From: a virus
Reading direction: 5' to 3' (one strand)
DNA length: 29,963 nt
IMG/VR virus record: IMGVR_UViG_3300027759_000033
Span: 1 to 29,963 of that record
Numbering within the stretch: position 1 is the stretch's first letter; each line of letters begins with the position of its first letter. Shown piece by piece: positions 1 through 29,938 of the stretch. The notes beneath the pieces were generated by a model that worked only from the letters and a program-made list of their open reading frames with translations, did not search any database and was not told the origin of the DNA. A program made the position numbers and the translations under genes.

Positions 1-102
1 GATTCTATGCAACGTCGTAATACCAATACCGAAATGCTGCAAGGTTTCTTTTACCGTGTGATTGCGCGCGTACGTTCGCACCTCTCTGTCGGTGTAGCTC
101 AT
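1..102 (-). CDS. Partial copy: N-terminus of the multi-HTH DNA-binding protein
   Basis: This is the first 34 codons of the gene that is complete at 28898-29938, seen again because the window overlaps itself. Its ATG (102-100) overlaps the TGA of the upstream gene (101-99) as ATGA, which places the multi-HTH protein directly downstream of the primase and zinc-finger genes in the same operon. It is not a separate gene. Confidence 0.9.
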   Translation of the reverse strand, partial: MSYTDREVRTYARNHTVKETLQHFGIGITTLHRI

Positions 103-127
103 GGCAGCGCCTGTATAAGCGTTTTGA
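1..127. repeat. Left copy of 127-bp terminal overlap (assembly circle)
   Basis: Bases 1-127 are identical to 29837-29963. The segment lies inside coding sequence: the first 34 codons of the multi-HTH gene (reading down from 102) and the last codons of the zinc-finger gene ending at 99. A repeat inside two overlapping genes, with a length equal to the assembler k-mer 127, is best explained as the overlap left when a circular or circularly permuted genome is assembled. The unique genome is then 29,836 bp. Confidence 0.9.
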
Positions 128-497
128 TTTGCTCGTATCGTGCCTGGGCTGTGGTAAGCTGCTTGTGCAACAACAACGCCTGCCCTAACTTGCCGCCTGC
201 TGCTATGCTTTTGTCGGCTTTACGCTGCAATGATTCGCGGTTTTCTGTTGTGGCAGTACGGTATGCATGATAGTACCTGGTGTACCGTTCGTCGTCTGCA
301 TCTTCGAGCCGCTCTATCATGTCTACCAAAGCCGCGTTTAGCACGTTTACCATAGTTTGCAAGCGGTTCGTAATCTTTGCATGTTGGTGCCGACAAAATC
401 CACATAGGGCTATACCGTCTGTGTTGTCTGGCTGGTATTTCTCTAAGCAGTAGGCACAAATCGGCTGCCATAGTCCAGTATTGCGCGCGGTTGTCAT
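99..497 (-). CDS. Zinc-finger / coiled-coil protein, early operon
   Basis: A 132-aa protein of unknown function. Near the N-terminus it has a CxxC-14-CxxC arrangement (C14, C17, C32, C35) followed by HxH, typical of a small zinc ribbon. The rest is strongly helical and charged, probably a coiled coil. An upstream ATG at 548 exists, but the start at 497 is preferred because its ATG overlaps the TGA of the primase-helicase (ATGA). The stop overlaps the start of the next gene in the same way. Lying between the replicative primase-helicase and a multi-HTH protein, it probably has an accessory role in replication; this is inference from position only. Confidence 0.75.
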   Translation of the reverse strand: MTTARNTGLWQPICAYCLEKYQPDNTDGIALCGFCRHQHAKITNRLQTMVNVLNAALVDMIERLEDADDERYTRYYHAYRTATTENRESLQRKADKSIAAGGKLGQALLLHKQLTTAQARYEQIKTLIQALP

Positions 498-2506
498 CGG
501 CTTAATTCCTCTCTCAGTGTATCGATTAGCGAACGTGTCGGAAGCCATACGCTGGCTAGCCTGTCAAATTCTTTTAGGTTGCCCGTGATTAACACGTTGC
601 GCAATTGCTGCAGCCTGTTTTCGGGTATCATCTGGCTTGCCGTTAACCTCGGCAGCGGCTCGGCTGGCTTCACTGGCTCGGCAGGCTTTGGTGTTGGTCG
701 TGATTCATAACCAGTAGGCACGTATGGTGCAACGCTTTTGATACAAAAGTATTTGCCGCTTGCATCCTGCTTCACATGCCCAGTGCCTTTTAGCCGATGC
801 AACAGGTTATGTGTGCTTTGCTTGCTCTTGTTGATTGCCTCGGCAATGTCTTGCGCTCTCCAGTGTGTACCGTCTGCAAGGTATTCCAGCACGGTTGCGC
901 GCTCTTTGGTAAGCAGGAAACTTTCAGGGTCGCCGATTACCTCGTGATGCGAGCCGGTGCTATTCCAGGTTAGCAGCCGTTTGTCATCGGCTTCTATATC
1001 CCTGCCGCGTACAATTAATTCTGATTGGTTTTCTTCACCTGGTATACGGCTTAGAATAAACATGCCAGACACGCCGCCTGCAAGCCCCGTGGTACCGCTT
1101 ATTTCATCGAAAGCGTCATCGCTTTTACTTTTGCGCGTGTGGTGTATTACCAGGATTGCGCAATGGTATTTCTCTGCAAGCATCGTAAGCGGCTTTACCG
1201 CGTCGTAATCTTCGCTGTAGGGATTTGCGTATTTTTCACGCGGTGCACGGATATTCTCGAGAATGTCCACAACAATCAAAACGGTATCTGGGTATTTCAG
1301 GAGATAAATTTCAAGGTCTTCTACTGCCTGGCTGCCTCGGCTCCAATTCTCGGCAATCAGCAGATTTGACGGCTGCCCTTCGTCACCAATTGCCATTTGT
1401 CGCAATCGCTGCTGCATACGCCGCTGGTTGCTCTCAAGGTCAAGATATAAAACCTTGCCTTTTTCTGATTTGTATTTGCCGAAAACCAAATCACCGCGAG
1501 CTACCGCGCGCGCAATGTGTGTGCCTGCCCAGCTTTTGCGCGCTTTCGGCTTGCCTGCAAAGACAAAGCATCCTTCCGGTAATATCTCTTCTACAATCCA
1601 GGTAAGCGCGGCAAATTGCTTAGCTTCCAATGCCTCGGCAGAAATCAAATCAAACTGCAATTCGTTGCTAGCCGCGAATGATTCCGGCTGCAGTGCTGCC
1701 AGCATATTCATTGCATCTGCCTGATATAGTTTTGCCCAGTCTGCTAAATCCCCGCCGTTACCCAGCTGCATATTTACGGCATACACGGATAGCCGTACAT
1801 CCTGCATTGCCTTAACGGCTTTTGCCGTGGCTGCCCTGCCTGCTTTGTCGCAATCCAGTGCAACAATAATAGAGCCGCTCCACATGCGCAAAAGCTCGGC
1901 AAGCAGGCTGGCAGTTGGTGCCCGCTCGCCGCCGCCTGCCAGGGTGATTGCTGGTATTCCAAAGTGCTGTGCTACTACCGTGCTAGCTTCGCCGTTACAG
2001 TACACAAGCGGCTGTTTTGTTGCGCGTGCCATTTTGATTGCTTCTGGCAGCTTGTACCAACACGAGGTAAAGCCCTTTTCATTGGTGTAGGTGTTGTTAT
2101 CTCGATAGTCTAGAAACCGATACCGCAAGCCGTTTGCAGTTTGTATGCTTATGGCAGGTCGTTTTAAATACCGAATAGGTGCAAAGCCTGCCGCTGCAAA
2201 CACTTCCCAATTTACGCCCTTTTGCGCCGCGTAATCGGTGTGGTCTGTATAAACACGCTTGCTACTGTCTATCGCCGCTCCTGGTTGCTCTATGCCCCAT
2301 TGCGGCATACGTTGTACTAGGTCGTACAAGCTGCCGCGCTCTTGTGTAACGTGGTCTAGCCAGGTGCCGTGCTCATCGCCCGTAATGTGCAAGCTAAAAC
2401 CATTGCTATCGCTGCCTGGTCGAAATGGTGAATTAATACGGTATTGATTGCTACTGGCAGGCTCTATATTGAGCGCTGCCAGTACCTGTGCTGCTGTGCT
2501 GTCCAT
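494..2506 (-). CDS. Primase-helicase (TOPRIM + RecA-like ATPase + winged helix)
   Basis: A 670-aa replication protein. Residues 1-110 resemble the N-terminal part of phage primase/helicases. A TOPRIM-type segment follows, with E173 (NGEAS) and the DxD motif D218/D220, then a GDLADW element at 252-257. The ATPase domain has a RepA/AAA_25-like Walker A (AGKPKARKSW, 317-326), a hydrophobic Walker B ending in D414 and an HHT motif at 455-457. A winged-helix region lies near residues 530-590. The family synthesises primers and unwinds DNA at the phage fork. The start at 2506 has AAGG about 7 nt upstream. The gene is preceded by a short hairpin and the SSB-like gene. DnaB-like helicase function is inferred, not proven. 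Confidence 0.88.
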   Translation of the reverse strand: MDSTAAQVLAALNIEPASSNQYRINSPFRPGSDSNGFSLHITGDEHGTWLDHVTQERGSLYDLVQRMPQWGIEQPGAAIDSSKRVYTDHTDYAAQKGVNWEVFAAAGFAPIRYLKRPAISIQTANGLRYRFLDYRDNNTYTNEKGFTSCWYKLPEAIKMARATKQPLVYCNGEASTVVAQHFGIPAITLAGGGERAPTASLLAELLRMWSGSIIVALDCDKAGRAATAKAVKAMQDVRLSVYAVNMQLGNGGDLADWAKLYQADAMNMLAALQPESFAASNELQFDLISAEALEAKQFAALTWIVEEILPEGCFVFAGKPKARKSWAGTHIARAVARGDLVFGKYKSEKGKVLYLDLESNQRRMQQRLRQMAIGDEGQPSNLLIAENWSRGSQAVEDLEIYLLKYPDTVLIVVDILENIRAPREKYANPYSEDYDAVKPLTMLAEKYHCAILVIHHTRKSKSDDAFDEISGTTGLAGGVSGMFILSRIPGEENQSELIVRGRDIEADDKRLLTWNSTGSHHEVIGDPESFLLTKERATVLEYLADGTHWRAQDIAEAINKSKQSTHNLLHRLKGTGHVKQDASGKYFCIKSVAPYVPTGYESRPTPKPAEPVKPAEPLPRLTASQMIPENRLQQLRNVLITGNLKEFDRLASVWLPTRSLIDTLREELSR

Positions 2507-3930: not shown

Positions 3931-4116
3931 CTATGCTTGCTGTGCCTGTGCTGCAGCGCGCGCGCTTTCGTTTACCGAGGCGCGCGCTTCGTTGTCAAGC
4001 CTGGTTAGCTCGATAGTAAGCGCGTTTAGTAGCAAGCCTGTTGCCGTCATCTGTTGCGCTGTTGCCTCTGCCTTCCATCGTTGGATTAATTCCAAAGGCA
4101 TCCGAATCGTTACCAT
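3931..4116 (-). CDS. Small ribbon-helix-helix-like DNA-binding protein
   Basis: A 61-aa protein beginning MVTIRMPLELIQRWKAEATA, which reads as a classic RHH: a short basic strand, then a helix, a turn and a second helix (TATGLLLNALTIEL). The tail is Ala/Gln rich. The ATG at 4116 has AAGGG 7 nt upstream and is preferred to 4173. The gene overlaps the 3' part of the 179-codon frame 3995-4534 by 122 nt, which is unusual in this tightly packed genome. It could be an early transcriptional regulator or partition/antitoxin-like protein. Confidence 0.65.
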   Translation of the reverse strand: MVTIRMPLELIQRWKAEATAQQMTATGLLLNALTIELTRLDNEARASVNESARAAAQAQQA

Positions 4117-4534
4117 CTTGCTGCCCTTGCTCGGTATACCAGGCTGGTGGTATTTTTTTAGGTACATATACATATCCTTCTGCTAATAACGCTGCTTGTA
4201 ACCAATCTGCTGCCGTGCAGAGCGCCTCATCATAATCAAATACCCAAAGCACTGTAGGGTTCGCATTACAGCTGCTTAATTGCACCAAATTTACCTCTTC
4301 GCCGCTAATAACATCTTGCCAAATCGTTGCCGTTATGGATGTTGTTATGTCTGCAAAGTTTTGCAATTTTTGGTACGTAACAGCCAGCCGTGCAAATCCA
4401 GTAATAGGGCATTTGATAAGCTCTCGATACGGCTGTACAAACGTTTGCAAGTTTGGTGCCATTTCTCGCACAAAATCCATGTGATAGCGTTGCTCGATTG
4501 ATTCGCCCTGGTTGGTTGCAATCCTTGTAAACAT
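3995..4534 (-). CDS. Hypothetical early protein
   Basis: A 179-aa frame of unknown function. Residues 1-125 look like a folded globular protein (hydrophobic spacing, VLWVFDYDEA). The last 50 residues are low in hydrophobic content (Gly, Asn, Asp, Arg) and overlap the RHH gene in another frame. An A7 run at 4159-4153 lies near residue 126, so the true C-terminus is doubtful. The start at 4534 overlaps the stop of the 34-aa membrane protein as TAATG, and GAGAG lies about 8 nt upstream. Confidence 0.6.
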   Translation of the reverse strand: MFTRIATNQGESIEQRYHMDFVREMAPNLQTFVQPYRELIKCPITGFARLAVTYQKLQNFADITTSITATIWQDVISGEEVNLVQLSSCNANPTVLWVFDYDEALCTAADWLQAALLAEGYVYVPKKIPPAWYTEQGQQDGNDSDAFGINPTMEGRGNSATDDGNRLATKRAYYRANQA

Positions 4535-14692: not shown

Positions 14693-15193
14693 TGGTTTAC
14701 CTTCTGTTGGTGATTGTTCGATATATGCATAAGCGTATGCAGAATTAGCAGCGTTGCCGCTCTTTGCTAACCTCTTTACATCGCTGGTTGCCGTGGTACG
14801 TGGCTCGGCAGGCGTCGGTGTTAGGCTTATTTCGCCTACTACCCAGCGTTTGAGCTCTCCTGATTCTCTTACTACCAAATGCGATAATGCACCGGTCGAC
14901 AAACCGAGCGCGCCGCGCTTTACCAGTTGCATTACTTGTTTGGCGTATTTGTCGCGCCTGTCTAATTCGATTTCAACGTCGATGCCGTCGTCATCAGGTG
15001 CCCAGCTTTTTACTACACCAATTTGGCGCCGCAAATCACCCAGGCTGTGGTCGTAGTACACAGGCATGCCGATAAAAGAGCGCGTTTCGCCGAGGTCTGT
15101 TTTTGGCGTGAATGTATCGCCTTGCAAATCACGCCCGCCCCAAATAATGCCCTTGCCTTTTAATGTGTATTCGCCTACTGCCTTTACTGTCAT
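13643..15193 (-). CDS. Prohead protease - major capsid fusion
   Basis: A 516-aa single frame. Residues 1-135 are an HK97-type (S78) prohead protease with H49 in VYYDH, S99 in LGLSTGA and E121 in VVGEISLTP. Residues from about 168 are the scaffold-like domain and HK97-fold capsid. The protease would cut itself free and trim the delta domain. The start at 15193 overlaps the Dps-like gene stop (TAATG), which rules out the longer frame open to 15355. The internal RBS at codon 168 suggests extra capsid without protease is also made. Confidence 0.85.
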   Translation of the reverse strand: MTVKAVGEYTLKGKGIIWGGRDLQGDTFTPKTDLGETRSFIGMPVYYDHSLGDLRRQIGVVKSWAPDDDGIDVEIELDRRDKYAKQVMQLVKRGALGLSTGALSHLVVRESGELKRWVVGEISLTPTPAEPRTTATSDVKRLAKSGNAANSAYAYAYIEQSPTEGKPMDKNEMKAAMLEILEESAGTPVAGGGVVDSTRQAPATKKLTSRGFSGEQSEAIVHYLKTGDEIAAKATLVEGTGANGGYTVPHDFYTQVIDKRDQNWIGAKLGIQRYTTDRQIFDIADQNGKSNFAFVAESAAANFDEPTFSQSAITVYTASLAMKISNQLLRDNAMDLEGFLTREIGRAYARHLNDYMINGTGSAQPYGVLARATVSETLASASGLDQSDIHNIVYKLPAWYVDDGNATGWVMQNSTLGAIRQLQGNFYSFQPTPMGTIDNLYGKPIAVTDKIAVLGTGNKPIIFGNWGYYAFVENLGLEVSRNPYVYQPNYQTAIFCTVRWGGDVVQPEAFVYGVNP

Positions 15194-15960
15194 TACTTGC
15201 CCCGCAATACATACAGAAGCTGGCTTGCCAGTTCTTTTACGTGCTTTGGTTGTTCCATTGCAGCAGGCATTGATTCTGTCATCATGTCCATTTCGGCAGG
15301 CTCTGGCAGTTCTGCAAGCTCTGGTGTTGGTGTCTGAATTGCTCGTAACATCCAACGTAATTTCTGGTGATAGCCTAAGCGGTCTTGCAGAAAGTTTTGT
15401 ACACCATATTCAGCTGCAATGCCTGCAAAGTAGATTCCGCCTTGCAGCAAATCACACATGCGCATGTTATCAAGCGTAATGCTTGCAAGCAGGGCAGGTA
15501 GTGGTGCTTCCTCGGTCAGCATGTCGGCTGGCTGGTATGCAATTGCCTGGTAAATAGTGGCAGGTGCCTTAAATCCCAAAGCTCGCAAATACTCGGCTGT
15601 AGGGTCAATTGCCTCTTCGAGCGCTTCGTACATATCATGAAAAAATGCATGATATTGCGGAAAGTCTTCACCTTCCAGATTCCAATGTGCTGCGTGTGAT
15701 TTGTATTTGAGGCAAATGGTTTCACCGAGGATTTCGCGCAATTGCCCTGGCAGGTCTGCAGCCTTTGCACTGCGTACCGCGTCGGTTTCTGCTACTCGGC
15801 TGTTTACGTCTTCCATGTCTGTCATATCGTCACCCAAATCAGCAAACATGCTCTTCATTGCCTCGGCATGTGCTGCCGTTGCCTGGGCATGCATCATTAC
15901 TGCCTGCCGTGCTGCTTTAATCATTACCATGTCACTTGCACTGTGTCGGCTTCCTGCCAT
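15193..15960 (-). CDS. Dps-like ferritin within the head module
   Basis: A 255-aa protein. Residues 70-215 are a Dps/ferritin-like four-helix bundle. The ferroxidase ligands follow the canonical spacing: H92 (AHWN), H104, D119 and E123, the same +12, +15, +4 spacing as bacterial Dps. There is an N-terminal helical extension of about 70 residues and an acidic Pro/Met-rich C-terminal tail. The Dps family binds DNA and oxidises ferrous iron, protecting DNA from damage. Here it is coupled to the prohead protease gene, so it may be packaged or sit on the capsid. RBS GAGGTG lies 5 nt upstream. Confidence 0.85.
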   Translation of the reverse strand: MAGSRHSASDMVMIKAARQAVMMHAQATAAHAEAMKSMFADLGDDMTDMEDVNSRVAETDAVRSAKAADLPGQLREILGETICLKYKSHAAHWNLEGEDFPQYHAFFHDMYEALEEAIDPTAEYLRALGFKAPATIYQAIAYQPADMLTEEAPLPALLASITLDNMRMCDLLQGGIYFAGIAAEYGVQNFLQDRLGYHQKLRWMLRAIQTPTPELAELPEPAEMDMMTESMPAAMEQPKHVKELASQLLYVLRGK

Positions 15961-23354: not shown

Positions 23355-23767
23355 TCGTCTATCTCTTTCTCATCTGATTCGAGCTCTTCGCCCTGGTAAT
23401 AGAACGGCATTTTCAAGCCCTTTACCCAGGTTGTTTCATTTGCTCGTAAGTGTGCAAGATTGTACAGCAAATCGGTATAGGGCTGCTGGGTATCATGAGC
23501 AAATTTTATGCACATGTCTAGCCAGTAATCAAAATCAATATTCTGCCGCCTGCTTTTGAGCTCTATCTGTAGCTTTTTGTCTACTACCATTGCCGCAATA
23601 AAGCGTAGTGTGTACCGAGATGCCTTTGTACGCCTTGCATAGATTTGCACGTTTACTGGCTGGTTTGCTGTTGGTTTAATCTCTACCCATTCGCTTTGAT
23701 TTGCCCAGCGTCTATCTACCAGTATTCCATTGCCCGCGTATATTTCGCCTTTAAACCAGCCTGGCAT
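23351..23767 (-). CDS. Hypothetical protein
   Basis: A 138-aa protein of unknown function. It is basic and beta-rich in the first half (WVEIKPTANQPVNVQIYARRTKASRYTLRF), then helical, and ends in a very acidic tail (EELESDEKEIDE). It is coupled to the six-repeat HTH gene by TAATG and to the lysozyme-like gene by ATGA. The direct link to the HTH-repeat gene makes it a candidate partner of that protein. Confidence 0.65.
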   Translation of the reverse strand: MPGWFKGEIYAGNGILVDRRWANQSEWVEIKPTANQPVNVQIYARRTKASRYTLRFIAAMVVDKKLQIELKSRRQNIDFDYWLDMCIKFAHDTQQPYTDLLYNLAHLRANETTWVKGLKMPFYYQGEELESDEKEIDE

Positions 23768-24984
23768 TACTTGCCGCCTTTCTTGTATGGCACTGCTACT
23801 GCCTTGTATGTGTAGCCCTTGCGCTTAAGGTACCTGCGTAATTGATTATCTGTACAGCCGATTACGTGCCGAGCCTGTTGAATCGTTCGCGCTGCATACC
23901 AGTTTGCATGGTGATTAAAATCTAAATCGGTTTCTATCGTTTGCGGTTTGATGTTGTGCTTGTATGTCCAGCCGCGTTTTCGCAAAAAATGAATAACTTG
24001 ATACCGAGTCTGGCAGAGCTCATCAGTTAGCTGTGCAATTGTTCTGCTTGCGTAATAATTTTGCTCTTCTGGCATTTCATATTTTTTGTTACCTCGGTTT
24101 ATTCTGCGTTTATACGGCAGATTACGCACCCGCAAAAAATTGCGGGTTGCGCTTTCGCTTCGCTTCATTGCTCTCATGATTTCTTTGATTGTGCGCTTTG
24201 CATACCAGGCTGCATCTGTCGGCATGTCTGGCAATGCTTTTTTATACATTGGTTTTGTCTGTATGTATGCATAGCCGCGTGATTCGCAAAAATGCCGCGC
24301 TGCCGAGCGGCTTAAATTCATTGCTGCAGTAAGTTGCTTTATTGTTTTGTTTGCATAGAATGCTGCATCGTCTGGAAATCGTGCCGTATATTGTTCTTTC
24401 TTTGGATTTGGTTTGTATGCCCAGCCCCGTCGCCGCAAAAACCGTGCTACTGTCTTTGCATCGATGCCGAGCTCGGCAGCAGCCGCGTTGATTGTTCGCG
24501 CGGCAAACCAGCTTGCATCTTCTGGGTATTTTGCCCGTGGCTTGTTTGTCGGTATTGCAATCAGTTTTTGGTATTGGTAATTATGTGCAGTGCAATGCTT
24601 GTACACCGCGTCGCGGCTGCAGCCCATTTCGGCAGCAATCTGCAATATATTGCGTGATGCATAGTAGGCAGGGTTTTTGCTCCAAACGCGCTCTTTTGCG
24701 GCTGTGTTTACCAGCTTTGGTGCTTGTATCGGCTGGCTTTCGGCACGTGCCGCTAATCGCCTGTAATCGCGTATATCTGCAATGCCCAGGGCAGCAGCCC
24801 CGTTGCTTTTCATGCCGTCAATTTCTTGCACATGATAGGAAATGTCATCTTCTGGCACATTCAGCAATACCGCTTTGTACCAGGGCTCGTATTCCTCGTG
24901 CCGTAACGTTGCTATTACCCTGTCGGTGTAGCGCAAATCATCGCGCCCCGTCAATGATTCCTGCAGCTTTTGGTGCAATCCCAT
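23767..24984 (-). CDS. Six-repeat HTH-like DNA-binding protein
   Basis: A 405-aa basic protein. After about 100 residues of N-terminal domain come six tandem repeats with a period of 50-52 residues. Each begins with a YA-x-[RK]-[TN]-I type signature (residues 108, 160, 210, 261, 311, 363). Each continues as a helix-turn-helix (e.g. AAAELGIDAKTVARFLRRRG) and ends in an aromatic plus basic linker (W/Y-x-YK). The second helix differs strongly between repeats, as expected of recognition helices. The likely role is binding an extended or repeated DNA site. Expressed from the late promoter. The start at 24984 has AGG 6 nt upstream. I know of no named family with this layout. Confidence 0.8.
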   Translation of the reverse strand: MGLHQKLQESLTGRDDLRYTDRVIATLRHEEYEPWYKAVLLNVPEDDISYHVQEIDGMKSNGAAALGIADIRDYRRLAARAESQPIQAPKLVNTAAKERVWSKNPAYYASRNILQIAAEMGCSRDAVYKHCTAHNYQYQKLIAIPTNKPRAKYPEDASWFAARTINAAAAELGIDAKTVARFLRRRGWAYKPNPKKEQYTARFPDDAAFYANKTIKQLTAAMNLSRSAARHFCESRGYAYIQTKPMYKKALPDMPTDAAWYAKRTIKEIMRAMKRSESATRNFLRVRNLPYKRRINRGNKKYEMPEEQNYYASRTIAQLTDELCQTRYQVIHFLRKRGWTYKHNIKPQTIETDLDFNHHANWYAARTIQQARHVIGCTDNQLRRYLKRKGYTYKAVAVPYKKGGK

Positions 24985-27554: not shown

Positions 27555-27584
27555 TTTCTTTTTCTTTTTTTTCTTTTTGTTTTT
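27555..27584. other. Polypyrimidine/polypurine tract upstream of the methyltransferase
   Basis: A T-rich run on the plus strand (A-rich on the coding strand) with only four interruptions, 42-71 bp upstream of the methyltransferase start. It could act as a bent or UP-like element. No hairpin precedes it, so it is not a clear terminator. Confidence 0.4.
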
Positions 27585-28012
27585 CATCGCCTCGGCTGGT
27601 GTTACCTTAGGGGGAAACGATTTCCCACAGTTGCCCCGCGCTGCCGCGCGAATCCGAGCCGCCGCGCTGCCGCGCTCATTGTCCAGCCGAGCCCAGCCCG
27701 CTGCCGCGCTGCCCTGCCTGGCTCGGCAGTGTCAAGCATTGCCGCCGCGTTGCCGCTGCTGTTTGGCATTGCAGTGCCGCTTTGCTGTGCTTGCGTTCAA
27801 TGCAACATACCAGCACAAATGTTGCTTTGAGCCAATGCACCGCAACACAAAGCCAAACACCGCAACGCGTTACACCAGGCGCCCGCCTGCCTGGCACCTG
27901 GCTGCCGCCTGCCACACATCGCCATCGATGCCGAGCGCTGCCGAGCCGAGCCGCGCCCGCGCGCGCGCGAAGGGAGGCAGCGCCATTGCCTGCCAAATGC
28001 CGCAATGCCCGC

Positions 28013-28027
28013 ACCTGTAATACAGGT
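28013..28027. promoter_or_regulatory. Operator-like palindrome ACCTGTAATACAGGT
   Basis: Perfect 6-bp arms ACCTGT / ACAGGT around AAT. The ACCTGT half also forms the arms of the inverted repeat at 28376-28407 (ACCTGTGTACT), so the same protein may bind both. Confidence 0.45.
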
Positions 28028-28261
28028 ACCGCAATGTGACAACAGCAGCAGCATTGTTTCGCAAGGATATCAACAGCCGTTTACATTGCGCCCAGGTCAA
28101 TACTTATTAAATAAGCATTTCAGCTGGCAGGGATTAAAAACACGGTAATACTCTAGTTAGTCACTAGATTACATAAACTAACATTGCGGTATGCACAGAC
28201 ACGAGCAAAGCGCTCGGCAGTGAGAGAAACAAACCATAGACAAGAGAAACACTACATACAT

Positions 28262-28298
28262 ATAGATATATATAAAGAACATCCATATATATATCTAT
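28262..28298. repeat. AT-rich 13-bp inverted repeat (possible unwinding element)
   Basis: ATAGATATATATA (28262-28274) and TATATATATCTAT (28286-28298) are perfect inverted copies around an 11-nt spacer. The block is almost pure A/T and lies 12 bp from the first GTGTAC repeat, as expected of a DNA unwinding element beside iterons. Confidence 0.65.
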
Positions 28299-28309
28299 GT
28301 GTTATGCAT

Positions 28310-28605
28310 GTGTACTCATGTGTACTACATGTACTACTGTGTACCTGTGTACTCGTGTGTACTTTAGTAAACGTTAGTACACAGGTGTTCTATAAGACCT
28401 GTGTACTCGTTTTACAGCATTCTATAGCCTTATACCTGCATTTAGTACACAGGTACACGTTAATTCACATAGGAAACAAGAAAAGCAGTACACATGCAAC
28501 GCTGTATACCAAGTGCTGGCCAGTGTTTCGCGCGTCACAAAGCAAAATGCCCAGCCTATCGCCTGATATGCTGGGCATGTGTGTACCGGTGTACTCGTGT
28601 GTACT
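28310..28605. repeat. GTGTAC[T/C] iteron array, putative origin/operator
   Basis: Plus-strand GTGTAC[T/C] begins at 28310, 28320, 28339, 28347, 28357, 28401, 28581, 28589 and 28599, with the variant ATGTACT at 28329. Minus-strand copies (plus-strand [A/G]GTACAC) begin at 28376, 28444, 28452 and 28487. The first six sites are 10, 9, 10, 8 and 10 bp apart, close to one helical turn. Sites 28376 and 28401 form an 11-bp perfect inverted repeat (AGTACACAGGT, 10-nt gap, ACCTGTGTACT). The array lies beside replication genes and an AT-rich element, so origin function is the best inference. Confidence 0.75.
28547..28578 (-). terminator. Early-operon terminator
   Basis: A 9-bp perfect stem (ATGCCCAGC / GCTGGGCAT) with a 14-nt loop that can form a further TATC/GATA stem, followed on the minus strand by TTTTGCTTTG. 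It lies 34 bp beyond the stop of the VRR-NUC gene. It sits inside the repeat array, with three GTGTAC sites before it and the rest after it. Confidence 0.75.
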
Positions 28606-28611
28606 GGCTTA

Positions 28612-28908
28612 CTATTGCAATGATTCGAGATAGTCACGCGCTTGCTCGGCTGTATAAATCACGGCAACAGGTGCACCGAGCCAAGCAGCGTGCCATGCCT
28701 GCTGCCGTTCATTGAGCTTGCCTTTGAGGTCTGGATTCTTTACCTCTACAAGGCACGTTATTCCGCGATATCCCACAAGCAAATCAGGTACGCCCGCCCC
28801 TGCATCGTGCAACAACACTACCGAGGCACCGAGAGCCTGCAGGGTGCCAACAATGAGCTTCTGATTTGCGTCTACTCTTCTACGTTGGTATACAAGCTTA
28901 TTTGCCAT
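28612..28908 (-). CDS. VRR-NUC nuclease
   Basis: A 98-aa stand-alone nuclease of the PD-(D/E)xK class. The core is AGAGVPDLLVGYRGITCLVEVKNP, giving the PD motif and ExK (EVK), followed by LNERQQAWHAAW and PVAVIYTAEQARDYL, the standard VRR-NUC layout. Such phage enzymes cut branched DNA or flaps during replication and recombination. It overlaps the multi-HTH gene by 11 nt and is the last early gene before the terminator and the putative origin. Confidence 0.88.
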   Translation of the reverse strand: MANKLVYQRRRVDANQKLIVGTLQALGASVVLLHDAGAGVPDLLVGYRGITCLVEVKNPDLKGKLNERQQAWHAAWLGAPVAVIYTAEQARDYLESLQ

Positions 28909-29938
28909 GCAATGCCTCCAATGCAGCAGGATATTTGCCGCTTTCCTGTAGCCATTGTATGACGGCTGGCTTATAGTGCACTCCTGGCTGCAGTGGTCGA
29001 GGCAATCCCATATAGTACACGCTGCCTGTTACCTGTTTACCAATGAGCTGGGCAATGTGCTGGCTGGTGATATACGAGGCGTTGAAACGGTCAATAATCG
29101 TTTGGTACCAATCTTCGCCAGGCAGCGCGCGTTGCTGTAAACGTGGCACCTGCAACACGAGGTAATCGGCAACGAATGCCCGCAAAAACACGCTGCCGAA
29201 ACCCCAAGCCCTGCCGATATATGCAGCGCGCAAGGCAGGTGCATGCACGCGCGAATAGGTATCGAGCCCGTACGCTTGCAGCTCTAATGCCCCAACAAAA
29301 TCTACTTTGCATTGCTCGTATATCTCTTGTATTTCGGTGTTGCGTTTGTGTAGCATATTGAGCCGCAATGCATTGCCGCTGGCTAGCCAGTTGTATACCT
29401 CGGTTATATCGTACGAACGCCTACCGCTCTCGTGCTGGATTACTGGCAGCCTGTTGTGTGTTACCCAGTGTGAAACGTGCTCGGTATTTACGCCCAAATC
29501 AGCAGCTACCATGCTGCAGGTATAGCCCAAAGCAGAATTATAGGAAATGTTCAACACGCGCCCGCGCTCAAATACTGCCCTGCTTGTGCGCTTTAGCTTT
29601 TTGGCTATTTCGTCAATGTGCATAATGTGCATATTCATGGAAAGATACGTATCATCTTTTTTCGTCCAGGCATACCGAATGCCCTTCAGCTTTAACCGTC
29701 GTAAGCGCGAATAGAGGGCGCTTGCCGTAATGCCGTAATAGGCTGCCAGTAGTGGTACGTTGTTATGAAATTTGCGCATATCTGCTGCCAGTACATCAGT
29801 ATCGAACCAAGGGCGCCGCAAGGTAACTTTTCCAATGATTCTATGCAACGTCGTAATACCAATACCGAAATGCTGCAAGGTTTCTTTTACCGTGTGATTG
29901 CGCGCGTACGTTCGCACCTCTCTGTCGGTGTAGCTCAT
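28898..29938 (-). CDS. Multi-HTH DNA-binding protein (candidate origin binder)
   Basis: A 346-aa protein built from several helix-turn-helix units: residues 5-40 (KETLQHFGIGITTLHRII), 44-86 (LLAAYYGITASALYSRLRRL), a SANT/Myb-like unit at 88-132 (WTKKDDTYLSMNMHIMHIDEIAKKL) and a MerR/excisionase-like unit at 140-186 (CSMVAADLGVNTEHVSHWV..., ITEVYNWLA). A possible fifth unit is at 288-335 (TSQHIAQLIGKQVTG). No catalytic motif is seen. It lies between the primase-helicase genes and the repeat array, so origin binding or replication control is the likeliest role. Its start (ATGA overlap with the previous gene) is seen at 102 in the left overlap copy. Confidence 0.75.
   Translation of the reverse strand: MSYTDREVRTYARNHTVKETLQHFGIGITTLHRIIGKVTLRRPWFDTDVLAADMRKFHNNVPLLAAYYGITASALYSRLRRLKLKGIRYAWTKKDDTYLSMNMHIMHIDEIAKKLKRTSRAVFERGRVLNISYNSALGYTCSMVAADLGVNTEHVSHWVTHNRLPVIQHESGRRSYDITEVYNWLASGNALRLNMLHKRNTEIQEIYEQCKVDFVGALELQAYGLDTYSRVHAPALRAAYIGRAWGFGSVFLRAFVADYLVLQVPRLQQRALPGEDWYQTIIDRFNASYITSQHIAQLIGKQVTGSVYYMGLPRPLQPGVHYKPAVIQWLQESGKYPAALEALHGK

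Follow-up and report, generated by a model that had tools for sequence, protein, structure and literature searches.

A conserved array of GTGTAC sites as a probable iteron-type replication origin of a tailed phage

The window, that is the whole stretch of 29,963 nucleotides analysed here (IMG/VR virus record IMGVR_UViG_3300027759_000033), begins and ends with the same 127 bases. Judging from this end overlap, it holds the complete or nearly complete genome of a phage, about 29.8 kb long and circularly permuted. The minus strand carries nearly all genes, including all recognised ones, which comprise a terminase pair, portal, capsid and tail genes, an amidase-type endolysin, a primase-helicase of the Toprim/AAA_25 type, a nuclease and HTH proteins. 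A close named relative was not found, the top terminase match showing about 28% identity, and searches with Rfam and for tRNAs gave no matches. Between the portal and capsid genes lies a gene for a Ferritin/Dps-like protein (15193-15960, minus strand; Pfam Ferritin, E = 2e-13), and ORFs with a similar size and N-terminus are found at the matching position in the relatives G002 and G003. The features around the repeat array studied here are collected in Table 1.

Table 1. Features of the array locus and candidate binding proteins (window coordinates).
Position	Strand	Feature	Remark
99..548	-	Small conserved protein carrying paired cysteines	Part of the replication operon
494..2506	-	Primase-helicase: Toprim, RecA/DnaB-fold AAA_25, C-terminal winged HTH	Favoured candidate for the initiator
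737..910	-	Winged HTH of the primase-helicase (residues 533-590)	Candidate domain for iteron binding
3931..4173	-	Ribbon-helix-helix protein	Less favoured alternative binder
27556..28611		Main intergenic region	Conserved among relatives; 67% to G002 across 947 bp
28258..28302		AT-rich inverted repeat with the lowest stability in the genome	Candidate site of melting
28310..28605		Iteron array: 13 GTGTAC(T/C) sites in both orientations	Variant sites TGTACT (28330) and GTAAAC (28367)
28376..28407		Inverted repeat/hairpin	Arms are two iterons in opposite orientation
28547..28578	-	Hairpin between iteron groups, maintained through compensatory changes	May act as terminator or as single-strand structure
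28612..28908	-	Small nuclease gene (PHROG endonuclease / Holliday junction resolvase families)	Immediately upstream of the array
28898..29938	-	D5-like multi-HTH DNA-binding protein	Alternative binder

A first, sequence-only reading of this DNA had claimed thirteen GTGTAC sites followed by T or C, together with one variant. We counted exactly 13 between 28310 and 28604, nine on the plus and four on the minus strand, with T or C always as the next base; the variant is TGTACT, and a second one, GTAAAC, adds to it. The sites are enriched over shuffled sequence, since 5000 dinucleotide shuffles of the array's own 296 bp contained GTGTAC 1.68 times on average and 8 times at most. Genome-wide, the array is the densest hexamer cluster, the best unrelated hexamer reaching 7 copies per 296-bp window, and elsewhere in the genome GTGTAC occurs at expectation (23 observed vs 22.9). 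A blastn search of the array against named phages gave no match.

The first six sites are indeed 8-10 bp apart, as had been stated, and the conclusion drawn from this spacing, that they lie on roughly one face of the helix, did not hold. Taking a helical repeat of 10.5 bp, we obtained a mean resultant length R of 0.11 for the dense run, which is no better than the phase coherence of random gaps (P = 0.91). Throughout the five genomes compared, the short gaps measure 10 bp (27 cases), 8 bp (15), 9 bp (6) or 7 bp (2), with a mean of about 9.1-9.3 bp, and the 10-bp and 8-bp gaps are intermixed in every genome. With the sites out of register at about 10.5 bp, a helically phased operator array was rejected. 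The same applies to a 9.3-bp lattice over the entire array, as jittering the long gaps does equally well.

The location of the array is conserved. Four related contigs (L001, L002, L003 and L004) encode the neighbouring nuclease with 71-84% identity, and all four carry an array just after the nuclease gene. Counting GTAMAC, there are 14 sites in the window, 13 in L001, 17 in L002, 16 in L003 and 20 in L004. The unit in gene sense is AGTACACAGG in the window, L001 and L002, and most sites of L003 and L004 now read TGTACACAGG or TGTAAACAGG, a drift to TGTAMACAGG. Since most sites are altered in these two contigs, the set of sites has moved together, as would be expected if the array is read by a co-evolving protein. 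A methyltransferase gene downstream of the array was not found in G002 or G003, and a link between the array and the methyltransferase was rejected for this reason. The 78-bp block at 27556-27633, just before the methyltransferase start, is 86% identical in G003, which has no methyltransferase; the block is possibly a promoter or leader.

The AT-rich block and the 11-bp inverted repeat described in the sequence-only reading are both present, the former as a 17-bp inverted repeat with 94% match and the latter, at 28397-28407 and 28444-28454, with 100%. Moreover, the 50 bp with the lowest stability genome-wide directly adjoin the array in all three genomes large enough to be tested, namely at 28256 in the window (z = -4.1), at 2157 in G002 (z = -4.3) and at 28773 in G003 (z = -4.8). 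In the hairpin between the iteron groups, 98% of cells pair across five genomes, both sides have changed in five of ten pairs, and the observed covariation score was reached by no shuffle. Because its T-run is weak, this hairpin may either end transcription of the replication operon or act as a single-strand structure. Further into the intergenic region, at 27630-28000, lies a GC-rich stretch that stands apart from the remaining genome by its CGCGCG runs and its many words resembling GCTGCC and GGCAATGC; similar stretches are seen in L002 and L003.

The intergenic region contains no DnaA box, the nearest match to TTWTNCACA being located about 1 kb away inside a gene. DnaA boxes are present in many iteron origins, though not in all, and are not defining where the helicase loads itself. 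A turning point of the GC skew, proposed as a further mark of an origin, was not seen at the array; after detrending, the skew of the window has its extremes at 4.8 and 15.8 kb. The skew is uninformative here, because nearly all genes lie on one strand.

Overall, the locus combines a cluster of short repeats far above chance, adjacent AT-rich and easily melted DNA that is the stability minimum of three genomes, and replication genes that are common to the relatives and kept together with the array. These are marks of an iteron-type origin. We consider it likely that the array is such a replication origin of a tailed phage, an origin kind which is already known. The sequence-only reading had left the choice between an iteron-type origin and a multi-site operator. 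The former is best supported, owing to the conserved position, the adjoining melting region and an initiator-type helicase family with iterons at the stop codon of related genes, and the latter has become the less likely of the two.

Which protein recognises the iterons is a separate question. The array had been described as next to replication genes, and this is broadly right: the nuclease and multi-HTH genes adjoin it, and the primase-helicase is located about 2 kb upstream. The latter is read in the same direction as these two genes and is reached across the circular junction. Two further genes and the nuclease lie between the helicase stop codon and the array, which counts against the helicase as the binding protein. 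Its structure model is poor overall (pLDDT 45), so that local regions alone are usable.

The case for the helicase comes from its homologues. A scan for GTACAC arrays identified an unrelated high-GC phage contig, L176, which encodes a helicase homologue (29% identity, E = 4e-34) and in which a GTACAC array begins at the stop codon of this gene. Seven further homologues were fetched from a collection of named phages regardless of repeats, and six of them have an intact gene end; the seventh, L245, stops short inside its helicase domain and did not enter the combined test. All six carry repeats at or beside the stop codon, namely TCATTGA in L240, GTGACGA in L241, CGACGC in L242, GTGACRG in L243, TTATCG in L244 and GTCCCT in L246. 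For the 150 bp 3' of the stop codon, the combined P over the six intact homologues is 5e-4, with three of them ranking in the top 2% of their locus and the other three at 19-29%. Among five homologues from a plasmid collection, two have arrays (GTGAAA in L248 and CGTGAC in L249), and no array was found at the stop codon in L247, L250 and L251. Moreover, very similar C-terminal domains of the helicases pair with very similar iterons, as seen for GTGACG in L241 and L249. The 3' arrays and the match between C-terminus and iteron support the helicase as an iteron-binding initiator whose specificity may reside in the winged helix. As judged from these sequences, the tie between helicase and iterons is an association, not proof.

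On balance, we favour the phage's own primase-helicase as the initiator at this origin, with somewhat less confidence than the origin itself. In the mechanism we propose, about 14 short iterons (AGTACACAGG) following the replication operon would serve as the origin repeats, and copies of the primase-helicase would bind them through the C-terminal winged helix. The iteron groups of opposite orientation would gather helicases on both sides, and the AT-rich block at 28258-28302 would be melted. The helicase would then load itself, and its own Toprim primase would prime at the melted DNA. As the genes searched included no recognisable polymerase gene, the host polymerase would presumably be recruited afterwards.

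The array could also be a replication origin at which the adjacent D5-like multi-HTH protein binds the iterons and recruits the helicase. Its gene adjoins the array and is conserved in all relatives that reach that far, the protein contains several HTH units, and D5-like proteins are annotated as DNA-binding regulators. However, we detected no relative of it beside any other GTACAC array examined, that of L176 included, and its poorly modelled fold (pLDDT 56) leaves local regions alone usable. We regard this arrangement as unlikely, although it is the closest competitor of the primase-helicase. Another HTH protein had been named as a possible binder. It is encoded at 23767-24984 on the minus strand, near the lysis genes, and consists of six HTH-like repeats of roughly 45-50 amino acids each. 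It is not favoured, because the number of its repeats (6 in the window, 6 in G002 and about 3 in G003) does not track the number of sites (14, 17 and 16).

Less probable still is a role of the array as a multi-site operator or enhancer, where a bound regulator would control transcription of the downstream genes. The genome does encode candidate regulators in the multi-HTH and ribbon-helix-helix proteins, and the next gene cluster lies downstream of the array, with a conserved block just ahead of the next gene. The start of this gene is, however, about 750 bp from the array and the gene itself is not conserved in G002 and G003, which makes the operator less likely; a good promoter match was not found in the array, and an operator would not explain why the array adjoins the least stable DNA of the genome. 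It is very improbable that the array is a partition site, at which a segregation protein would bind as at a centromere, or a pac site used by the terminase: the genome encodes a ribbon-helix-helix protein and the GTACAC arrays of some other contigs lie near terminase genes, but no match to ParA, ParM or TubZ was found among the genes scanned, which include part of the small ORFs, and the terminase genes of the window are about 7 kb from the array.

The reading as an origin can be compared with known systems. In SaPI-type satellites (L061, L070 and others), we found a GTACAC array directly after the rep gene. It has been shown that the SaPI origin is located directly after rep and is recognised by the C-terminal domain of Rep, and that PICI origins have an AT-rich region with one iteron set on either side (PMC7581432, PMC6092414). 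Like these origins, the window has GTACAC iterons in both orientations, spaced 9-10 bp and grouped in sets after replication genes, together with an AT-rich melting region. The shared GTACAC core is partly built in, because our search for SaPI-type elements used the motif of the phage itself. The two differ in that the AT-rich region lies between the sets in SaPI/PICI, whereas in the window it lies at one edge and a GC hairpin separates the sets. Furthermore, the SaPI/PICI origin is directly 3' of rep, whereas other genes separate helicase and array in the window, and the Rep helicase is of the DUF927 type, as in SaPIbov1-type Rep, or of the SF3/D5 type, in contrast to the RecA/DnaB-type helicase of the phage. 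Homology of SaPI Rep to the primase-helicase or to the D5-like protein was not detected.

A flexible layout taken from SaPI and other contigs, a comparison defined after the resemblance had been noticed, accommodates six of seven inter-site gaps in the window (P about 0.0045). For the window and L001 the match has a P of about 0.005, and L003 and L004 show no fit. The likeness in spacing between SaPI and the phage arrays of the window and L001 is thus only suggestive. A rigid spacing match failed to reach significance in permutation tests (P 0.06 to 1.0) and was rejected, and DNA alignment to SaPI outside the iterons was discarded as weak and inconsistent between relatives.

The alpha protein of satellite phage P4 unites a primase, an SF3-type helicase and a C-terminal DNA-binding domain. 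The window resembles P4 in this one-protein combination of primase, helicase and putative DNA-binding domain and in a likely origin where AT-rich DNA accompanies short iterons of both orientations, and differs in its Toprim and RecA fold, as opposed to the SF3-type helicase of alpha. SCCmec Cch2 is a self-loading helicase whose C-terminal domain binds direct repeats downstream of its own gene (PMC7581432). Its putative origin is like the window in the position of the repeats downstream of the gene and in the binding proposed for the helicase C-terminus; unlike the window, it has a D5/SF3-type helicase and AAGTG iterons in three copies only (PMC7581432).

The AAA_25/RepA-like loci (L176, L240-L244, L246, L248 and L249) have helicases homologous to that of the window, and 9-10-bp iterons directly 3' of the gene, usually in both orientations. 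Their iteron sequences are unlike that of the window except in L176, and the window differs from them by the genes between helicase and array. In a limited literature search, which covered few subscription papers, no paper was found that treats AAA_25 and iterons together. Within this searchable literature, there appears to be no description of a RecA/DnaB-fold helicase combined with a winged helix and 3' iterons.

Replicative helicases of the DnaB/RecA fold are generally thought to require a separate initiator and often a loader. More tentatively, the helicases compared here may represent a widespread, undescribed class of initiators in which a RecA/DnaB-fold helicase with a winged helix, joined in this phage by a Toprim primase, loads itself on iterons 3' of its gene or operon without separate initiator or loader, the iteron sequence following that of the winged helix. 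If the helicase family binds the iterons itself, it would form a compact, self-starting replication module. If the class exists as outlined, the origins of many uncultured phages and plasmids could be predicted from the helicase gene alone, and winged-helix sequences could be paired with iteron sequences.

GTGTAC arrays were also observed beside other replication proteins (L008:1195-1503, L158:2982-3297, L227:4693-4960 and L167:5486-5716), where the partners comprise a DUF5906 protein, a DUF927-type helicase, VapE-like and Toprim proteins. Thus, one iteron core is shared by loci with different helicase families. In L133, L155, L180, L185, L205, L214, L216 and L218, GTACAC arrays of a recurring layout lie between genes; they consist of a pair, an inverted single site, a triple and an inverted pair or single site, with gaps of about 10, 26, 41, 9, 9 and 84-93 bp, and several have terminase genes in the neighbourhood. 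A very dense intergenic GTAAAC array, with 23 GTAMAC per 300 bp, is located at L104:3286-3900, in a contig that encodes a terminase-like protein.
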